Origin: Nocardioides plantarum
Lineage (GTDB): Bacteria; Actinomycetota; Actinomycetes; Propionibacteriales; Nocardioidaceae
DNA: 64,000 nucleotides
Assembly (NCBI RefSeq): GCF_006346395.1
Contig: NZ_VDMS01000001.1
Span: forward strand, 1,178,001 to 1,242,000
Direction: 5' to 3'
The translations under genes were made by a program, and so were the position numbers. Of this stretch, positions 11,580 through 18,681 are shown piece after piece. Under the pieces are notes generated by a model. The model searched no databases and was not told the DNA's origin. It saw only the letters and a program-made list of their open reading frames with translations. How positions within the stretch are numbered: position 1 is the first letter of the stretch; the number at the start of each line of letters is the position of its first letter.

Positions 11580-12332
11580 GTGACGACCGTGGCCGACACG
11601 CTCGCTCCCCTGACCATCCCGCCCCGCTTCCGCGGGCCGACCTCGTCGGGCAACGGCGGGTGGACCGCCGGGGCGCTGGCGTCCTACCTGGCCCCCGGTC
11701 CGGTGCGGGTGATGCTGCGGGTCCCGCCGCCGCTCGACGTACCGCTGACGGTCGAGACCGTGACCGACGAGCGCGGCCACGACGGCGCCCGCGCGCTGCG
11801 CGACGACGTCCTGGTGGCCGAGGCTGCCCCCGCGGAGGCCGACGTGCCCCGGGTGGAGGCGGTCGGCGCGGACACCGCGCGGGCCGCCGGGGCGTCGTAC
11901 GCCGGGCACCGCTTCCACCCCTTCCCGTCCTGCTTCGCGTGCGGCACCGACCGCGGGGAGGGTGACGGGCTGCGGATCTTCCCCGGCCGCGTCGCCGACG
12001 ACGCCGAGGACCGGGTCCGGGTGGCCGCGACCTGGACCCCCGACCCGAGCCTCGGCGGCGACGCGGCCTCGTTGGCCGTCACCTGGGCCGCCCTCGACTG
12101 CATCGGCGGCTGGGCCGGCGACCTCGAGGAGCGGCTGATGGTGCTCGGCTCGATGACCGCCCAGGTCCGCGACCTGCCGCGCGTCGGCGAGGAGCACGTC
12201 GTGGTGGGCGGGGCCCGCGGGTCGAGCGGACGCCGTACGTTCACCGCTGCCAGCCTGTACGCCGCCGACGGGCGCCTGCTCGGCTCGGCCGAGCACGTCT
12301 GGTTCGCCGTGTCGCCGGAGGACTTCTCGTGA
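11580..12332 (+). CDS. Thioesterase-superfamily (double hotdog-like) protein
   Basis: 250 aa from GTG 11580 (GTG 11589 is possible). The N-terminal half has NGGWTAGALASYLAPGPVRV, similar to acyl-CoA thioesterase-like hotdog domains; the middle contains FPSCFACGTDRGEGDGLRI, and the second half AALDCIGGWAG and LLGSAEHVWF, giving two apparent hotdog halves. Probably an acyl-CoA thioester hydrolase or a non-catalytic relative; substrate unknown. Its TGA overlaps the GTG of the GH13 gene (GTGA), so the two are co-translated, though I see no metabolic link. Confidence 0.6.
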   Translation: MTTVADTLAPLTIPPRFRGPTSSGNGGWTAGALASYLAPGPVRVMLRVPPPLDVPLTVETVTDERGHDGARALRDDVLVAEAAPAEADVPRVEAVGADTARAAGASYAGHRFHPFPSCFACGTDRGEGDGLRIFPGRVADDAEDRVRVAATWTPDPSLGGDAASLAVTWAALDCIGGWAGDLEERLMVLGSMTAQVRDLPRVGEEHVVVGGARGSSGRRTFTAASLYAADGRLLGSAEHVWFAVSPEDFS

Positions 12333-13951
12333 GCGCCCGCGAGTGGTGGCGCGACGCCGTCGTCTACCAGGTCTACGTGCGCAGCTTCGCCTCGTCCGGC
12401 GAGCGCGGCGGCGGGCCTGGCGTCGGCGACCTGCCCGGCATCACCAGCCGCCTGCCCTACCTGCGCGACCTCGGGGTCGACGCGGTGTGGATCACGCCGT
12501 TCTACACCTCGCCGCAGCACGACCACGGCTACGACGTCGCCGACTACCGCGACGTCGACCGGCTGTTCGGCACCCTCGACGACGCGGACCGCCTCCTCGC
12601 CACCGCCCACGAGCTGGGGCTCAGGCTGATCGTCGACCTGGTGCCCAACCACACCTCGAGCGACCACGTGTGGTTCCAGGCCGCCCTGGCCGCGGCGCCG
12701 GGCAGCCCCGAGCGCGCCCGCTACCTGTTCCGTGACGGCAAGGACGGCGCCGAGGGGCCGGGCAGCGAGCCGCCCAACAACTGGCAGTCGGTGTTCGGCG
12801 GACCCGCCTGGACCCGCGTGATCGACGACGGCCGGCCGGGCCAGTGGTACCTCCACCTCTTCGACTCCTCCCAGCCCGACCTCGACTGGCGCAACCCCGA
12901 GATCGGCGACATGTTCGAGTCGGTGCTGCGGTTCTGGCTCGACCGTGGGGTCGACGGGTTCCGGGTCGACGTCGCCCACGGGCTGCTCAAGGTCGAGTCG
13001 CTGCCCGACCAACAGCAGGTGCTGCCGCCGCCCGGGCCGGACTCCCCGCCGGCCAGCATGGTCGAGCGCACCCAGGACGACGAGCCGATGTGGGACCAGC
13101 CCGAGGTCCACGACGTCTACCGACGCTGGCACCGCGTGCTCGCCGAGTACTCCACCGACGGGGCAGCCGGGGCCGACCGGATGGCGGTGGCCGAGGCCTG
13201 GACCCGCACCCCGGAGTCCATGGCGCGCTACGTGCGGCCCGACGAGCTGCAGCAGGCGTTCAACTTCGGCTGGCTGCTCGCCCCCTGGTCGGCGACGTCG
13301 TTCGGCGACGTCGTGACCGGCACGTTCGCCGCGCTCGACCCGGTCGGCGCCACCCCGACCTGGGTGCTCAGCAACCACGACGTCGTGCGCCACGTCACCC
13401 GGTACGGCGGTGGCGCGCAAGGCCTGGCCCGGGCGCGGGCCGCGACCCTGACCATGCTGGGCCTGCCGGGCTCGTCGTACCTGTTCCAGGGCGAGGAGCT
13501 CGGCCTCGAGGAGGTCGACGTCGCGCCACAGGACCGGCAGGACCCGTCCTGGTTCCGCACCGGCGAGGTCGGCCGCGACGGCTGTCGGGTGCCCGTGCCG
13601 TGGTCGGGCGACGCGCCGCCGTACGGCTTCGGTCCGGGCGACACCCAGCCCTGGATCCCGCAGCCCACCGACTGGGCGCCGCTCACCGTCGCGGCGCAGA
13701 CGGGGGTCGACGGCTCGACGCTCGAGCTCTACCGCGCGGCGCTGACCGCCCGCCGCGGGCTGCCGCCGGCCACGTCGGTGGAGGTGCACGTCGACGGCGA
13801 CGTGCTGCTGATCGAGCGGGGCGAGGTCACCATCGCCCTCAACTGCGGGACCGCTGACACCACCCTGCCCGCCGGTGACGTGCTGCTGGCCAGCGGACCC
13901 TGCGGCGACACGCTGCCACCGGACACGGCGGTGTGGGTCAGACGGCGTTGA
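12329..13951 (+). CDS. GH13 alpha-glucosidase
   Basis: 540 aa from GTG 12329. All four GH13 regions are present: DLVPNHTS (103-110), GFRVDVAHG (210-218, nucleophile D214), VAEAW (acid/base E289) and LSNHDVVRH (D351). The sequence QSVFGGPAW and QPDLDWRNPEI agree with the oligo-1,6-glucosidase/alpha-glucosidase/trehalose-hydrolase subgroups and with Streptomyces AglA-type enzymes. No signal peptide, so it acts on imported alpha-glucosides in the cytosol. The stop codon falls inside a 21-bp repeat that recurs at the end of the marR-like gene at 14880. Confidence 0.9.
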   Translation: MSAREWWRDAVVYQVYVRSFASSGERGGGPGVGDLPGITSRLPYLRDLGVDAVWITPFYTSPQHDHGYDVADYRDVDRLFGTLDDADRLLATAHELGLRLIVDLVPNHTSSDHVWFQAALAAAPGSPERARYLFRDGKDGAEGPGSEPPNNWQSVFGGPAWTRVIDDGRPGQWYLHLFDSSQPDLDWRNPEIGDMFESVLRFWLDRGVDGFRVDVAHGLLKVESLPDQQQVLPPPGPDSPPASMVERTQDDEPMWDQPEVHDVYRRWHRVLAEYSTDGAAGADRMAVAEAWTRTPESMARYVRPDELQQAFNFGWLLAPWSATSFGDVVTGTFAALDPVGATPTWVLSNHDVVRHVTRYGGGAQGLARARAATLTMLGLPGSSYLFQGEELGLEEVDVAPQDRQDPSWFRTGEVGRDGCRVPVPWSGDAPPYGFGPGDTQPWIPQPTDWAPLTVAAQTGVDGSTLELYRAALTARRGLPPATSVEVHVDGDVLLIERGEVTIALNCGTADTTLPAGDVLLASGPCGDTLPPDTAVWVRRR

Positions 13952-14879: not shown

Positions 14880-14900
14880 GTCAGACGGCGTTGAGCGCCG
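14880..14900. repeat. Right copy of 21-bp direct repeat
   Basis: Identical to 13937-13957. Here it encodes, on the minus strand, the C-terminal ALNAV and stop of the MarR regulator. If the segment between the copies is removed and one copy kept, the GH13 and MarR genes become convergent with overlapping ends. Confidence 0.85.
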
Positions 14901-15321
14901 CGTTGTAACGACCCAGCTCGGACACGAACGACGTCAGCTCGTCATCGGACCACTCCGAGAGCTTCTCGCCGAGCTGCTTCTGTCGGTGCTCGACGACGTC
15001 GGCCAGCCGGGTGTGGCCCTCGTCGGTGACCGACAGCAGCGTGGCGCGGGCGTCGGCGGGGTCCTTGGCGTGGGTCAGCAGGCCGAGCTCGACGAGGTGC
15101 TTGACCTGACGGCTCACCGCACCCTTGTCGACGTCGAACAGCTCGGAGATCGCCGAGGCGCGCACGGGCTCGCCCTGGGCGATCGTGGTGAGGATGAGGT
15201 AGGACGCGGGCTGCAGGTCGGGGTGGACCAGGCGGGCGCGGTCGCCGATCACCCGGCGTACGCGTCGGATGAGCACGCCCACCTCGGTCTCGAGGTCACG
15301 CAACGTGTCGGTCCGACTCAT
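14881..15321 (-). CDS. MarR-family transcriptional regulator
   Basis: 146 aa. Winged-helix core at about 35-105 (ASYLILTTIAQGEPVRASAI, SELFDVDKGAVSRQVKHLVE, DPADARATLLSVTDEG), flanked by dimerisation helices. Family members repress drug-efflux operons and let go on binding small aromatic ligands. Its ATG overlaps the TGA of the upstream MFS gene, so exporter and regulator are made from one transcript, and it probably represses that operon. That transcript also carries a leader-peptide attenuator (17026-17205). Confidence 0.92.
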   Translation of the reverse strand: MSRTDTLRDLETEVGVLIRRVRRVIGDRARLVHPDLQPASYLILTTIAQGEPVRASAISELFDVDKGAVSRQVKHLVELGLLTHAKDPADARATLLSVTDEGHTRLADVVEHRQKQLGEKLSEWSDDELTSFVSELGRYNAALNAV

Positions 15322-16925
15322 CGCAGCTTCGCCGCCGGGACGGGCACGGTCGCCCCGGTCTCGACGGGCTCGCCCACGAGCTCGTCACGGTCGTCGACGG
15401 TGGTCCGCAGGGGGACCTCCTTGATGAAGAGCACAGACACGAGGGCAAGGATCGCAAACGGCACGGAGATCAGGAAGATGTGTCCGATGGCTGTGCCGAA
15501 CGCGTGCTCGTAGAGGTCGCGGACCGGGGCCGGCAGCGCCTTGAGGTCGGGGATCGAGCTGCTCTGGTGGCTGGTCTCGGTGATGCCCATCGCGGACAGG
15601 CCGGAGCGCACCTTGTCGGCCACCTGGGTGGACAGCACGGCGCCCAGCGCCGAGACGCCGATCGACCCGCCGAGCGAGCGGAAGAACGCCACGACCGAGC
15701 TGGCGGCACCCATGTCCTCGAGCTTGGTGTTGTTCTGGACCGCCAGGACGAGGTTCTGCATCGTGGCGCCCAGGCCGATGCCGACCAGGGCCATGAAGAG
15801 GGCGACGACGACGAGCGGGGTGTCGGCGTCGATCGTGCCGAGGAGCGCGAGGCCGACCACGACGAACACGAGGCCGCCGACGAGCCAGCGCTTCCACACG
15901 CCGGTGGCGCTGATGATCCGACCGCTGACGATGCTCGAGACCAGGAGTCCGCCGACCATGGCGATCGACATCAGGCCGGCCTCGGTCGGGCTCATCCCCC
16001 GGGCGAGCTGGAAGTACTGGCTGAGGTAGACGGTGGCGCCGAACATCGCGATGCCGACCATGACCGAGGCGGTGGTGGCCAGGGCGGTGGTGCGGTCGCG
16101 GAAGAGGCGCAGCGGGATGACGGGCTCGATGGCGACCTTCGCCTCGACGTACAGCGCGGCGGCGATGGTGAGCACGCCGGCGGTGACCAGGATCGCGGTC
16201 GTGGTGGAGGCCCAGGCGAACGAGGAGCCGGCGAGGGAGACCCAGATGAGCAGCAGGCTGACGCCACCGATGATGAGCGTCGCGCCGAGGAAGTCGATGT
16301 GCACCTCGCGCTTGACGACCGGCAGGTGCAGCTTGCGCTGCAGGACGAAGAACGCGGCCAGGGCGAACGGCATCCCGACGAAGAAGCAGCCGCGCCAGCC
16401 GAGCGGGCTGTCGACGACGAGTCCGCCGATGAGCGGGCCGGAGACGGTCGCGAGGCCGAAGACAGCGCCGATGTAGCCGGAGTAGCGGCCGCGCTCGCGC
16501 GGGGAGACCATCGAGGCGATGACGACCTGGACCAGCGCGGTGAGGCCGCCGACGCCGAGGCCCTGGACGACACGACCGCCGATGAGGACGCCCATGCTCG
16601 GGGCGAACGCGGCGATCAGCGACCCGATCGTGTAGATCACCAGCGCGCTCTGCACCAGGAGCTTCTTGCTGAACAGGTCGGACAGCTTGCCCCAGATCGG
16701 CGTGGTCGCCGTCATGGCCAGCAGCGTCGCGACGACCACCCACGTGTAGCCCGACTGCGACCCGTTGAGGTCGGTCACGATCCGCGGCAACGCGTTAGTG
16801 ACCACGGTGCTCGAGAGCATCGCGACGAACATCGCGAGCAGCAGCCCGCTCAGGGCCTCGAGGATCTCGCGGTGCGTCATCTGTACGGCGGGCTGGTGGG
16901 ACTCGGTCACGGTGTCTGGCTCCAT
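15318..16925 (-). CDS. MFS drug exporter, DHA2 (14-TM, EmrB/QacA) family
   Basis: 535 aa from ATG 16925; upstream in-frame codons run through the leader structures and are not plausible starts. The chain has about 14 hydrophobic helices; GGRVVQGLGVGGLTALVQVV (around residue 120) matches the motif C region of antiporter-type MFS proteins, and LSDLFSKKLLV the motif A loop. Predicted role is proton-driven export of drugs or other hydrophobic compounds. The hydrophilic C-terminal tail is short. Expression appears to be controlled twice: by the co-transcribed MarR regulator and by the upstream leader peptide and terminator. Confidence 0.9.
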   Translation of the reverse strand: MEPDTVTESHQPAVQMTHREILEALSGLLLAMFVAMLSSTVVTNALPRIVTDLNGSQSGYTWVVVATLLAMTATTPIWGKLSDLFSKKLLVQSALVIYTIGSLIAAFAPSMGVLIGGRVVQGLGVGGLTALVQVVIASMVSPRERGRYSGYIGAVFGLATVSGPLIGGLVVDSPLGWRGCFFVGMPFALAAFFVLQRKLHLPVVKREVHIDFLGATLIIGGVSLLLIWVSLAGSSFAWASTTTAILVTAGVLTIAAALYVEAKVAIEPVIPLRLFRDRTTALATTASVMVGIAMFGATVYLSQYFQLARGMSPTEAGLMSIAMVGGLLVSSIVSGRIISATGVWKRWLVGGLVFVVVGLALLGTIDADTPLVVVALFMALVGIGLGATMQNLVLAVQNNTKLEDMGAASSVVAFFRSLGGSIGVSALGAVLSTQVADKVRSGLSAMGITETSHQSSSIPDLKALPAPVRDLYEHAFGTAIGHIFLISVPFAILALVSVLFIKEVPLRTTVDDRDELVGEPVETGATVPVPAAKLR

Positions 16926-17025
16926 GGGGGATAGAAGGTTGCCGAGGTCAACCGTATTCCCCGATGGTTGACACTGGCAACCATCGTGACCTGTCTCACG
17001 GAGCCGGGGTCCGTCGACCGCACCC

Positions 17026-17100
17026 GAAAAAGGGACAACCCGCAGGCGTGGTCTCCGTGGAGACCGCCCCCGGGGACATGGTCCGGGTTCGCCTGCGGGT
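17026..17100 (-). terminator. Intrinsic terminator in the MFS leader (attenuator)
   Basis: On the minus strand ACCCGCAGGCG (17100-17090) pairs perfectly with CGCCTGCGGGT (17048-17038), followed by TGTCCC and a run of five U (17031-17027). Inside the loop is a second perfect hairpin, GGTCTCCACGGAGACC (17065-17050). It lies downstream of a 12-codon leader peptide and about 100 nt before the MFS start, so read-through should decide operon expression. Confidence 0.8.
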
Positions 17101-17123
17101 CGGGTGACTGCGGTGGATTGACC

Positions 17124-17168
17124 AGCAGCCTCGTCGGGTAGTCGGGCCCGACGTGTTGCTGGGCTGCT
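17124..17168 (-). promoter_or_regulatory. Leader stem-loops directly after the leader-peptide stop
   Basis: In the transcript AGCAGCC (17168-17162), which overlaps the leader stop codon, pairs with GGCTGCT (17130-17124), and inside it CGTCGGG (17153-17147) pairs with CCCGACG (17138-17132). A ribosome stopped near the end of the leader peptide would cover the first arm. CCCGAC also recurs just before the terminator (minus strand, around 17105), so an alternative antiterminator pairing is possible. Pairing was judged by eye. Confidence 0.65.
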
Positions 17169-17205
17169 AGTGCGCAGCCACCTCACTTGTCCTATGGGAA
17201 TGCAT
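17167..17205 (-). CDS. Leader peptide MHSHRTSEVAAH
   Basis: 12 codons, ATG 17205 to TAG 17167. A very strong Shine-Dalgarno AAAGGAGGT (17225-17217) precedes it with a slightly long spacing of 11 nt, and a good sigma-70-type promoter lies just upstream, so the transcript begins almost at the ribosome-binding site. Such short, strongly initiated ORFs ahead of a terminator are typical of ribosome-stalling or amino-acid attenuation control of resistance and efflux genes. I cannot tell which antibiotic or condition stalls it; the peptide contains three His and two Ala near its end. Confidence 0.75.
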   Translation of the reverse strand: MHSHRTSEVAAH

Positions 17206-17237
17206 TGTGTAGGACCACCTCCTTTCCGTGTACGGCG

Positions 17238-17266
17238 AGCCTAGGTCGGCGCGTGGGCCGCGACAA
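17238..17266 (-). promoter_or_regulatory. Promoter of the leader-MFS-marR operon
   Basis: Minus-strand -35 TTGTCG (17266-17261) and -10 TAGGCT (17243-17238) with an ideal 17-bp spacer. The inferred start is close to 17231, only a few bases before the Shine-Dalgarno of the leader peptide. The segment just upstream of the -35 (CAATTCCC) is relatively AT-rich. Confidence 0.7.
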
Positions 17267-17342
17267 GGGAATTGAACCGACCCCGAGAGCGGGGGGACCC
17301 GGCCGGTCCGCGTGGCCCTCGGCCGACGGACCGCCGGATCCA

Positions 17343-17392
17343 GGGTCGTGTGCCTGACGACGACCTGTCCGACGTTCTCAGGCACACGACCC
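17343..17392. repeat. Perfect inverted repeat with 15-bp arms
   Basis: GGGTCGTGTGCCTGA (17343-17357) is the exact reverse complement of 17378-17392, with a 20-nt loop. It lies between the two divergent promoters (17238-17266 and 17449-17476), so it is not positioned to terminate either known transcript. It could be a large operator, a cruciform, or a relic of a mobile element. Confidence 0.7.
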
Positions 17393-17440
17393 CCGACCGT
17401 GGAACCAAGGGCTGAGTCACACCCGCGCCGCACAAACCGT

Positions 17441-17480
17441 TCTCATTGTTGACGCTTGTTCGCGAATGTATACAATGAGA
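17441..17480 (+). promoter_or_regulatory. Leaderless promoter embraced by an inverted repeat operator
   Basis: -35 TTGACG (17449-17454) and -10 TACAAT (17471-17476) with a 16-bp spacer. The ATG of the XRE gene is at 17484, only 7 nt after the -10, so the mRNA is probably leaderless. A perfect 9-bp inverted repeat, TCTCATTGT (17441-17449) and ACAATGAGA (17472-17480), covers both promoter elements with half-sites about 31 bp apart (three helical turns), as expected for autorepression by the XRE protein. Confidence 0.65.
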
Positions 17481-17483
17481 TAC

Positions 17484-17957
17484 ATGCCCGCAGCGAGTCC
17501 CTCCACCAGCGCCGAGCAGAGAGCGGACCTCGAACGACTCGGGGCGCGCCTGCGCGAGCGCCGCAAGGCCCTGGGGGTCACCGCGGTGGCGTGCGCCGAG
17601 GCCGCCGGCGTATCGCGGGTCACGTTGCACCGCATCGAGACGGGCAATCCGTCCGTCACGATCGGCGCCTACGCCAACGTCGCAGCCTCCTTGGGGCTTC
17701 ATCTGGTGGTGCCGATCCTCGAAGGACCTGGCACTGGCCGAGCCGCTGAGCGGACCCCCGTCCAGGTCGGTGACTATCCGGGCCTCCGCGCGCTGGCCTG
17801 GCAGACGGACGCAGGGACGACCATCACTGAGTCCGAGGCCCTCAATCTCTACGAACGCGGGTGGCGTCACCTTGATCAGCAGAGCTTGACCGACCGCGAG
17901 AGAGCCTTCATCCAGCACCTTGCTGACACCTACAGCCACGGGTCGCTCCTTGTTTAG
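17484..17957 (+). CDS. XRE-family regulator / putative antitoxin
   Basis: 157 aa from ATG 17484; the in-frame ATG at 17466 is rejected because it lies within the promoter. The Cro/CI-type helix-turn-helix is at about 18-72 (RERRKALGVTAVACAEAAGV, SRVTLHRIETGNPSVTIGAY). The C-terminal 80 residues form a separate domain (GDYPGLRALAWQTDAGTTIT, TDRERAFIQHLADTYSHGSL) that may bind the partner protein. The gene overlaps the downstream AbiEii-like nucleotidyltransferase gene, the usual antitoxin-then-toxin order. Probable job: autorepressor and neutraliser. Confidence 0.82.
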   Translation: MPAASPSTSAEQRADLERLGARLRERRKALGVTAVACAEAAGVSRVTLHRIETGNPSVTIGAYANVAASLGLHLVVPILEGPGTGRAAERTPVQVGDYPGLRALAWQTDAGTTITESEALNLYERGWRHLDQQSLTDRERAFIQHLADTYSHGSLLV

Positions 17958-18681
17958 GCGCCAGCACCACCAGCACGTGGCCGAGGTGCTGTCGAAGTTG
18001 GACGCACCCCTCTTGGCCGCGCACGACTGCTGGTTCGGGGGTGGCACCGCGATCGTTCTCGCCCATGACGAGTACCGGGAGTCGGTGGACATCGACTTCC
18101 TCGTCTCTGATCCGCAGTCGTACCGGGCGCTACGAGAACTCGTGCGGGACAAGGGCCTGCGAGGTCTGGCCAGACAAGACCTCGACGTGACACGAGCTCC
18201 CCTGATCGATGGGTACGGCATCAGGACAGCGGTCCTCGTGGCTGGCGTCCCCATCAAGCTCGGGATCATCCTCGAGGCCAGGATCGACCTCGATGCTCCG
18301 CCCCCCGGCGGGGAGATCTGCGGTGTTCGTGCACTGACCAGGACTGATCAGGTCGCCAGCAAGCTTCTCGCCAACGACGACCGCTGGGCCGACACCTCCA
18401 CCTTCAGCCGTGACCTCATCGACCTGTCCATGATGAGACCGGACACCGTCACCCTCGAAGCCGGCGCACGCAAGGCAGTGGACGCATACGGCAGGTCGAT
18501 CGGTGAAAGCCTGTTCAAGGCGATCGAGAGTCTGCGTGAGCGCCCGCAGCGGCTCGAGGAGATCGTTCGCGCCCTCAAGATGGATGCACCGCGAGCGGCG
18601 GTGTGGCAGGCCGTTCGCGACCTGGCGGCGACGTGCGAGAAGGTCGATGGCCTCGACCCGGCTGCGTTCCGCGCGAGCTGA
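17920..18681 (+). CDS. AbiEii/AbiGii-type nucleotidyltransferase (putative toxin)
   Basis: 253 aa if it starts at TTG 17920; TTG 17950, overlapping the XRE stop by only 8 nt, is equally reasonable. Nucleotidyltransferase motifs are clear: GGGTAIVLAHDEYRESVDID at 40-59 (GG[G]T plus the DxD metal ligands) and a helical C-terminal half (TDQVASKLLANDDRW, FSRDLIDLSMM). AbiE/MenT-type enzymes add nucleotides to tRNA or similar targets and give phage exclusion or growth arrest when not neutralised. Here the partner is an XRE protein rather than the classical AbiEi. Codon use is a little less GC-biased than nearby core genes, fitting an acquired module. Confidence 0.82.
   Translation: MLTPTATGRSLFRRQHHQHVAEVLSKLDAPLLAAHDCWFGGGTAIVLAHDEYRESVDIDFLVSDPQSYRALRELVRDKGLRGLARQDLDVTRAPLIDGYGIRTAVLVAGVPIKLGIILEARIDLDAPPPGGEICGVRALTRTDQVASKLLANDDRWADTSTFSRDLIDLSMMRPDTVTLEAGARKAVDAYGRSIGESLFKAIESLRERPQRLEEIVRALKMDAPRAAVWQAVRDLAATCEKVDGLDPAAFRAS

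Follow-up and report, generated by a model that had tools for sequence, protein, structure and literature searches.

Upstream of a gene for a putative drug exporter in Nocardioides plantarum lies a compact arrangement of a promoter, a short reading frame with a strong Shine-Dalgarno (SD) sequence, nested stems and a terminator-like hairpin, which raises the question of whether the ribosome controls the exporter through this leader or whether the element is a gene in its own right. The window analyzed here is a stretch of 64,000 nucleotides (contig NZ_VDMS01000001.1, positions 1,178,001 to 1,242,000), and an earlier note on it had proposed a leader-peptide attenuator of the MFS exporter and its MarR regulator. 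The parts named in that note are present as stated: the promoter TTGTCG-17-TAGGCT, the strong SD, the 12-codon open reading frame (ORF), nested stems that start at the stop codon and a hairpin followed by five T, with the MFS start codon (ATG, 16925) about 100 nt past the T run. We conclude that this was a good observation wrongly placed: the stretch is a member of the known RNA family Ms_IGR-5, not an exporter attenuator, and has the appearance of an independent RNA linked to the ribosome, not of a switch for the adjoining gene.

The sole match above the gathering threshold in a cmscan search of the 64-kb window against Rfam is RF02471 (Ms_IGR-5), on the minus strand at 17030-17231 (93.2 bits, the cut-off being 45; E 1.6e-19), and it spans the full length of the model (positions 1-184 of 184). 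Rfam files Ms_IGR-5 as an sRNA of Actinobacteria. The RNA of the window is predicted to start near 17233 and to end at the T run 17031-17027; its minimum free energy (MFE) is -98.8 kcal/mol, a value equalled by none of 200 shuffles (Table 1). In the openly readable passages found under its name, Ms_IGR-5 (original paper reportedly Li et al. 2013) is assigned no function and is described with neither an ORF sequence nor a match to 16S rRNA nor a pseudoknot.

Table 1. Features of the Ms_IGR-5 locus and its MFS-MarR neighbors in the window
Feature	Coordinates	Strand	Basis
Predicted promoter of the RNA: TTGTCG 17266-17261, 17-nt spacer, TAGGCT 17243-17238	17238..17266	-	sequence and pattern in relatives
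Ms_IGR-5 RNA gene	17027..17233	-	RF02471 match, fold z -5.04; both ends predicted
GGAAAGGAGGUGGUCC, complement of 16S tail GGAUCACCUCCUUUCU	17212..17227	-	16 nt uninterrupted (G-U allowed), 11 nt Watson-Crick only
Helix P1a: CAC 17230-17228 with GUG 17186-17184, flanking the SD bulge	17184..17230	-	shuffles, both-side changes
Leader ORF MHSHRTSEVAAH, stop UAG 17169-17167	17167..17205	-	frame kept in 169/200 loci
GGACA, putative 5' pseudoknot strand	17188..17192	-	alternative partner GUCC of the SD region (P1b)
Helix P2: GGUGGCUGCG 17182-17173 (leader codons 8-11) with CGCAGUCACC 17112-17103	17103..17182	-	MFE, shuffles, covariation
Stem P3 from the stop codon, nested in P2	17122..17170	-	MFE; z 10.9 vs shuffled partners
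UGUCC in the P5a hairpin loop, putative 3' pseudoknot strand	17074..17078	-	exact 5-mer partner in genus
Predicted terminator domain P5 (ACCCGCAGGCG/CGCCUGCGGGU), hairpins P5a 17087-17069 and P5b 17065-17050	17038..17100	-	MFE, P5 score
Separate MFS control region: palindromes GGTTGCCAGTGTCAACC 16982-16966 and GGTTGACCTCGGCAACC 16953-16937, promoter-like TTGCCA-18-TACGGT	16937..16982	-	
MFS (DHA2/EmrB-like) exporter, neighbor outside the RNA	15318..16925	-	PF07690, 159.5 bits
MarR-family regulator, neighbor	14881..15321	-	PF12802 and PF01047

The family is widespread in the phylum. At E <= 0.001, RF02471 matched 55 of the 58 relatives and 70 of 396 genomes sampled from the whole phylum (35 of these 396 over the cut-off), once per genome except for a second partial match in G035. 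R1, a covariance model built here from 76 sequences, matches 143 of the 396 genomes compared with these 70, many of its best matches being sequences from which it was built; the RF02471 model could accordingly be rebuilt. A single genome of the 143 (G281) has two R1 matches, and its listed contamination is 7%. A pattern scan of named genomes, which demands the SD, GGAC and GAGGTG, yielded at least 120 stretches and 80 loci, among the matches listed from many actinomycete genera as well as metagenome-assembled genomes (MAGs). Some MAG contigs among the matches listed are labelled outside the phylum (L153, Deltaproteobacteria; L191, Spirochaetia; L129, Acidobacteria; L178, Acidobacteriota), and the loci in L153 (G+C 57%) and L191 (51.5%) keep P2-, P3- and P5-like stems and the ORF. 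MAG labels may be wrong, so a wider spread across phyla is provisional; such elements could reflect transfer, ancient origin or misbinning. A mobile or phage origin was considered and set aside: viral contigs gave a single pattern match, and the 200 nt printed around it are, by eye, without the remaining element, so that we regard it as a chance match.

The comparisons below draw on 200 loci, namely 120 found by Rfam (with the partial or weak places G035:C58, G313, G299, G430 and G214 left out) and 80 pattern-scan loci among the matches listed; thinning reduced these to 134, of which 132 have an E anchor. Fourteen of the 132 had a misplaced anchor and do not enter the alternative-pairing and MFE-fold counts (118 loci), and two further loci were dropped from the P5 test for length (116). 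For alignment A1, 27 of the 132 were dropped by eye, the other 105 were thinned to 98 and 76 of the 98 were submitted, rows being selected for a clear E arm. The 80 pattern-scan loci are included in the ORF, P1a, P2 and 132-locus pseudoknot counts.

The RNA appears to have transcription signals of its own. The promoter pattern TTGN3-N16..18-TAN3T, scored just upstream of the element, is found at 37/37 same-genus and 79/82 same-class loci, and at 0/38 loci outside the window's class. At the 3' end, P5 scores 28.9 vs 18.0 (maximum 18.8) in shuffled sequences (n=116 loci), and in the window CCCTTTTTC, which holds the T run, follows the hairpin domain. The T tracts are weak, with at least five T within 14 nt after P5 in 37 of the 116 loci. 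A strict consensus scan of 16880-17420 returned no promoter and no terminator under rigid hexamer rules and with loops limited to 3-8 nt; the terminator stem of the window closes a branched loop. In their openly readable passages, published studies report RNA-seq support for Ms_IGR-5 in S. lividans (PMC8079986), list it as an sRNA transcription unit in S. avermitilis (PMC8780764) and describe an sRNA overlapping IGR-5 in M. smegmatis (PMC10454040). The MS_IGR-5 homologs of M. abscessus and M. smegmatis carry ribosomal reads according to the passages seen of another study, whose authors caution that most E. coli ncRNAs likewise show such reads (PMC4974804). Two further identifications were discarded: the paper checked does not support equating the RNA with Streptomyces scr4389, and the upstream ORF of a small-ORF paper on M. 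tuberculosis is located in the Rv0813c leader and is not demonstrated there to be Ms_IGR-5.

A link to the ribosome lies at the 5' end. The 16S rRNA of this genome ends in GGAUCACCUCCUUUCU, and the strong SD, AAAGGAGGT, is a portion of a 16-nt match to that tail. With G-U pairs allowed, the longest uninterrupted pairing is 16 nt in 105 of the 120 Rfam-found loci, 15 nt in 14 and 12 nt in one, compared with a background in the same loci of 12 nt at most, in 1 of 12107 30-nt windows; without G-U pairs, at least 11 nt pair in 74/120 loci. The tail of the window genome was applied to every locus, the 80 pattern loci were left out because their pattern demands the SD, and the RF02471 model behind the count itself favors the SD motif. 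The duplex with the tail is predicted at -29.3 kcal/mol; a plain AGGAGG string reaches -11.1, and the 53-nt P1 piece folds at -7.8. The 4.68-Mb genome contains AAGGAGGTGRTCC at two places, in the window RNA and antisense to the 16S end, and the reversed control pattern at one. A match that takes up the whole tail, far more than an SD requires, that is unique in the genome besides the antisense of the 16S end itself and that forms so stable a duplex would be expected of a decoy or antisense RNA that mainly masks the anti-Shine-Dalgarno or protects the 16S 3' end, translation being secondary. We nevertheless consider this unlikely, given that a conserved frame and stop are unexpected for a pure decoy and that one RNA per 30S subunit would demand a very high copy number.

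Such a frame is indeed conserved. Scoring an ATG, GTG or TTG 4-14 nt after GGAGG together with a stop 9-24 nt after GAGGTG, we found 169 of 200 loci (120 Rfam-found and 80 among the matches listed) to qualify in the frame of the window ORF, and 0 and 3 in the other frames. Among the remaining 31 loci, 27 have, by eye, CUG (17), AUC (5), AUU (3) or ACG (2) in frame; these near-cognate starts (L085, L087, L088, L094, L102, L104 and others), which among Rfam-found loci all fall outside the window's class, recall infC-type initiation control. In the 169 qualifying loci, start codons are ATG (91), TTG (65) or GTG (13), the spacing from GGAGG to the start is 10-12 nt in 160, and stop codons are TAG (133), TGA (26) or TAA (10). 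The encoded peptides share the consensus end E-V-A/T-x-x, most frequently as EVAAR (47/169), and the ends RRTSEVAER and CEVTET are found in the MAG loci L191 and L153, respectively.

Conservation of the frame and of EV, together with the ribosomal reads in the passages seen of PMC4974804, would be accounted for if the RNA were a plain small mRNA with the peptide as its functional product, a reading that the data make distinctly unlikely. The N-terminal half of the peptide is highly variable. Moreover, 4 of the 200 loci (L107, L112, L113 and L116) have a shifted frame and have lost the EVA peptide, and by eye a TAG at the same place closes an ORF with a different peptide; because these loci still use that TAG, the position at which translation ends seems more important than the peptide. 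The conserved EV codons also overlap an arm of helix P2, so that RNA pairing alone could account for codon conservation. This overlap and the four frame-shifted loci likewise bear on whether the conserved EV could mark the stall site of an arrest peptide.

The fold in which these codons take part goes beyond the RF02471 consensus structure, which shows no P1a, P2 or pseudoknot. P2, present in the MFE structure, comprises 10 bp that join leader codons to a segment about 60 nt downstream, before the terminator domain; P3 is a 10-bp stem enclosing a 7-bp inner stem. Compared with shuffles that take no account of phylogeny, P1a pairs at 4/4 positions in 109/132 loci (mean 46, maximum 56) and P2 is present in 98/132 (mean 41, maximum 53); the P1a of the window copy has 3 bp only and fails the 4-bp test. 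In the MFE folds of 118 loci, P1a (3 or more bp) appears in 16, P2 in 71 and P3 in 84. In A1, 93.1% of the cells of the named helices P1a, P1b and P2 are paired vs 26-37% when slid, and 112 cells have both sides changed vs 26.8 in shuffles. Counted by pairs, those with any both-side change number 7 vs 6.2 in shuffles (182/500 shuffles reach 7), P1b hardly covaries, and unguided RNAalifold on A1 returned 3 pairs, none of them in P1a, P1b or P2.

The pseudoknot would join a GGAYN strand upstream of the leader GUGAGG to a loop of the terminator domain, which in the window copy is that of P5a. Within the genus, an exact Watson-Crick partner of a locus' own 5-mer exists in 37/37 Rfam-found loci (22 GGAC, 15 GGAU) and is unpaired in the local fold of 34; the fifth base also follows in L011 and in the window copy. 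Across 132 loci, the 5-mer matches in 81 vs 33 in shuffles (maximum 47), with matches in 12/38 GGACT, 6/15 GGACA and 0/4 AGACC loci, and a 4-base test is barely above shuffles (118/132 vs mean 106, maximum 111).

The ORF is threaded through this structure, with its start codon in the P1 loop, codons 5-6 in the pseudoknot strand, codons 7-8 in the P1a arm and the stop in P3. Because it supplies one strand of the pseudoknot, P1a and P2, translation would have to unfold the RNA, and, judging from the sequence, translation and the long-range fold should be mutually exclusive. Relative to the open literature passages, the predicted pairing of Ms_IGR-5 with the whole 16S tail, the putative covarying P1a and P2 with the pseudoknot, and the apparent conservation of the ORF in one frame are new here. 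Both the conserved end of the peptide and the compensating stems that the earlier note had anticipated in relatives were thus found. Its attenuation architecture stood in part. A translated-looking ORF does lie within competing structures: of the alternative pairings around the stop, A:B (z 6.3 vs shuffled partners) is mutually exclusive with A:E (z 13.9) and B:C (z 10.9), with C:E weak (z 3.0) and the controls A:C and B:E at -0.3 and -1.0. P5 strands take part in none of the six pairings tested, among which a classical antiterminator was thus not seen.

Gene neighborhoods separate the RNA from any one downstream gene. A same-strand MFS gene follows in 27 of the 36 same-genus loci with enough flank (9 are without one) and, among the matches listed, in 1/147 other loci, L176, which is labelled Nocardioides; L135 and L147, also labelled Nocardioides, have no MFS neighbor. 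Elsewhere, a convergent THAP4/nitrobindin-type gene lies within 3.5 kb in 35/147 of these other loci among the matches listed, a pdxH-like gene is convergent with the RNA in L044, L057 and L072 (Pfam test), further convergent neighbors are TetR or NAD-ligase genes (L074, L086), and same-strand neighbors encode an M24 peptidase (L131), a GNAT protein (L126) and a metallo-beta-lactamase-fold protein (L045). In the 80 loci among the matches listed, a crude gene finder places the nearest gene downstream of the RNA on the opposite strand in 45 cases and on the same strand in 33; in the other 2 it finds none. The recurrent nitrobindin-type and pdxH-like genes might suggest a local device whose conditional read-through regulates downstream DNA, including by antisense to these genes; with the neighbor changing between families while the RNA stays, we regard this as very unlikely.

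In the window, the MFS operon appears to be an independent unit and the RNA a separate gene. Between the two, a GTTG-N4..9-CAAC palindrome is present in 28/28 MFS loci, often twice, vs an expectation of 0.01 per region in shuffles, and a promoter-like pattern in 19/28. The palindrome is MarR-operator-like and may be bound by the MarR protein. In L030, where the RNA and the MFS gene are 1051 nt apart, the palindromes stay close to the MFS gene, no more than 75 nt from its conserved start motif. The earlier note had held that a transcription start downstream of the leader would count against it, and these patterns predict such a start. The best NCBIfam matches of the exporter fall below their own cut-offs. 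Convergent with the MFS-MarR pair is an alpha-amylase family (GH13) gene (12329-13948, plus strand), and L176 and L192 have a gene of similar sequence downstream. On the other side, upstream of and divergent from the RNA (17466-18678, plus strand), is a type IV toxin-antitoxin-like pair, in which an HTH/AbiEi-like gene (PADLOC AbiEi 3.3e-24) overlaps an AbiEii nucleotidyltransferase gene (PADLOC 7.1e-68; PF08843, 74.8 bits).

A ribosome-mediated attenuator of the MFS-MarR operon, in which stalling on MHSHRTSEVAAH would block termination and allow read-through into the exporter, could draw on the same-strand MFS gene in the genus, the mutually exclusive pairings and the terminator domain with its T run, but it is the least probable of the explanations considered, in view of the MFS gene's own palindromes and promoter-like patterns, its rarity next to the RNA in other loci, the absence of P5 strands from the alternatives tested and an RNA much more widespread than the MFS association. 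With neighbors differing outside the genus, attenuation of MFS was rejected as the family function, and control of the MFS gene by the window leader is not supported. Proximity to an exporter can thus point to a resistance attenuator that comparison does not bear out.

We place somewhat more belief than doubt in a standalone RNA in which capture of a 30S subunit and translation gate the fold. Family membership, conservation, covariation, complementarity, frame and gene context are observed; from these we infer capture of the 30S by strand displacement, its coupling to the fold and an output. Ms_IGR-5 would be an RNA gene, usually single-copy and some 200 nt long, that has a promoter and a terminator to itself and whose 5' part exposes AAAGGAGGU in the bulge of a short stem. 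This bulge may capture a 30S subunit through the 16S 3' tail, zipping to as many as 16 bp and displacing part of the stem, and the docked subunit could also displace the GGAY strand. Initiation would follow, probably inefficiently in view of the long spacing and the frequent UUG or near-cognate start, and an ORF of about 12-19 codons would be translated. Since the ORF supplies one strand of the pseudoknot, P1a and P2 and its stop lies in P3, the translating ribosome would have to take the fold apart, whereas an empty RNA could refold. Loading and translation would in this way toggle the RNA between two states, so that it might report how frequently 30S subunits are loaded and translation occurs; the output is most likely a switched RNA stability or a trans-acting surface. 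If correct, this gate would explain in concrete and testable terms how a widely conserved RNA of actinobacteria works, one whose carriers include genera used for antibiotic production and research.

A more ambitious version, possible although rather unlikely, is an RNA sensor with the ribosome itself as ligand: the 16S tail would invade a toehold, the freed GGAY strand would then pair with the distant loop, and translation would reset the RNA. Such a sensor, if true, would gauge the availability of initiation-competent 30S subunits or, through its weak start codons, initiation-factor activity, and would do so across Actinomycetota and perhaps in scattered other phyla.

The gated RNA that we favor can be set beside several known systems. 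Like the window copy, the Rfam family RF02471 has the 5' motif, the stop region and the terminator domain; the Rfam entry carries the type sRNA of Actinobacteria, whereas the loci compared here conserve an ORF and look-alikes occur in MAG contigs labelled as other phyla. Leader-peptide attenuators, of the trp type or with erm/whiB7-type upstream ORFs, likewise have a short ORF after a strong SD, folding that is altered by the position of the ribosome and a terminator. Ms_IGR-5 differs in having no single downstream gene as a fixed partner, in that no antiterminator was found and in that the position of the stop, rather than a sensor codon, is conserved. Dual-function sRNAs such as SgrS, RNAIII and SR1, and also VcdRP, are free-standing sRNAs with an ORF, as Ms_IGR-5 appears to be, but in Ms_IGR-5 the ORF itself would form one strand of long-range helices. 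Finally, the extended SD sites of S. aureus, in the passages seen of the study describing them, combine extended pairing with non-canonical starts and upstream ORFs (PMC13009471), features that Ms_IGR-5 shares; compared with what those passages describe, its predicted pairing covers 15-16 nt and the whole tail in 119/120 loci and resides in a separate RNA with a putative pseudoknot.
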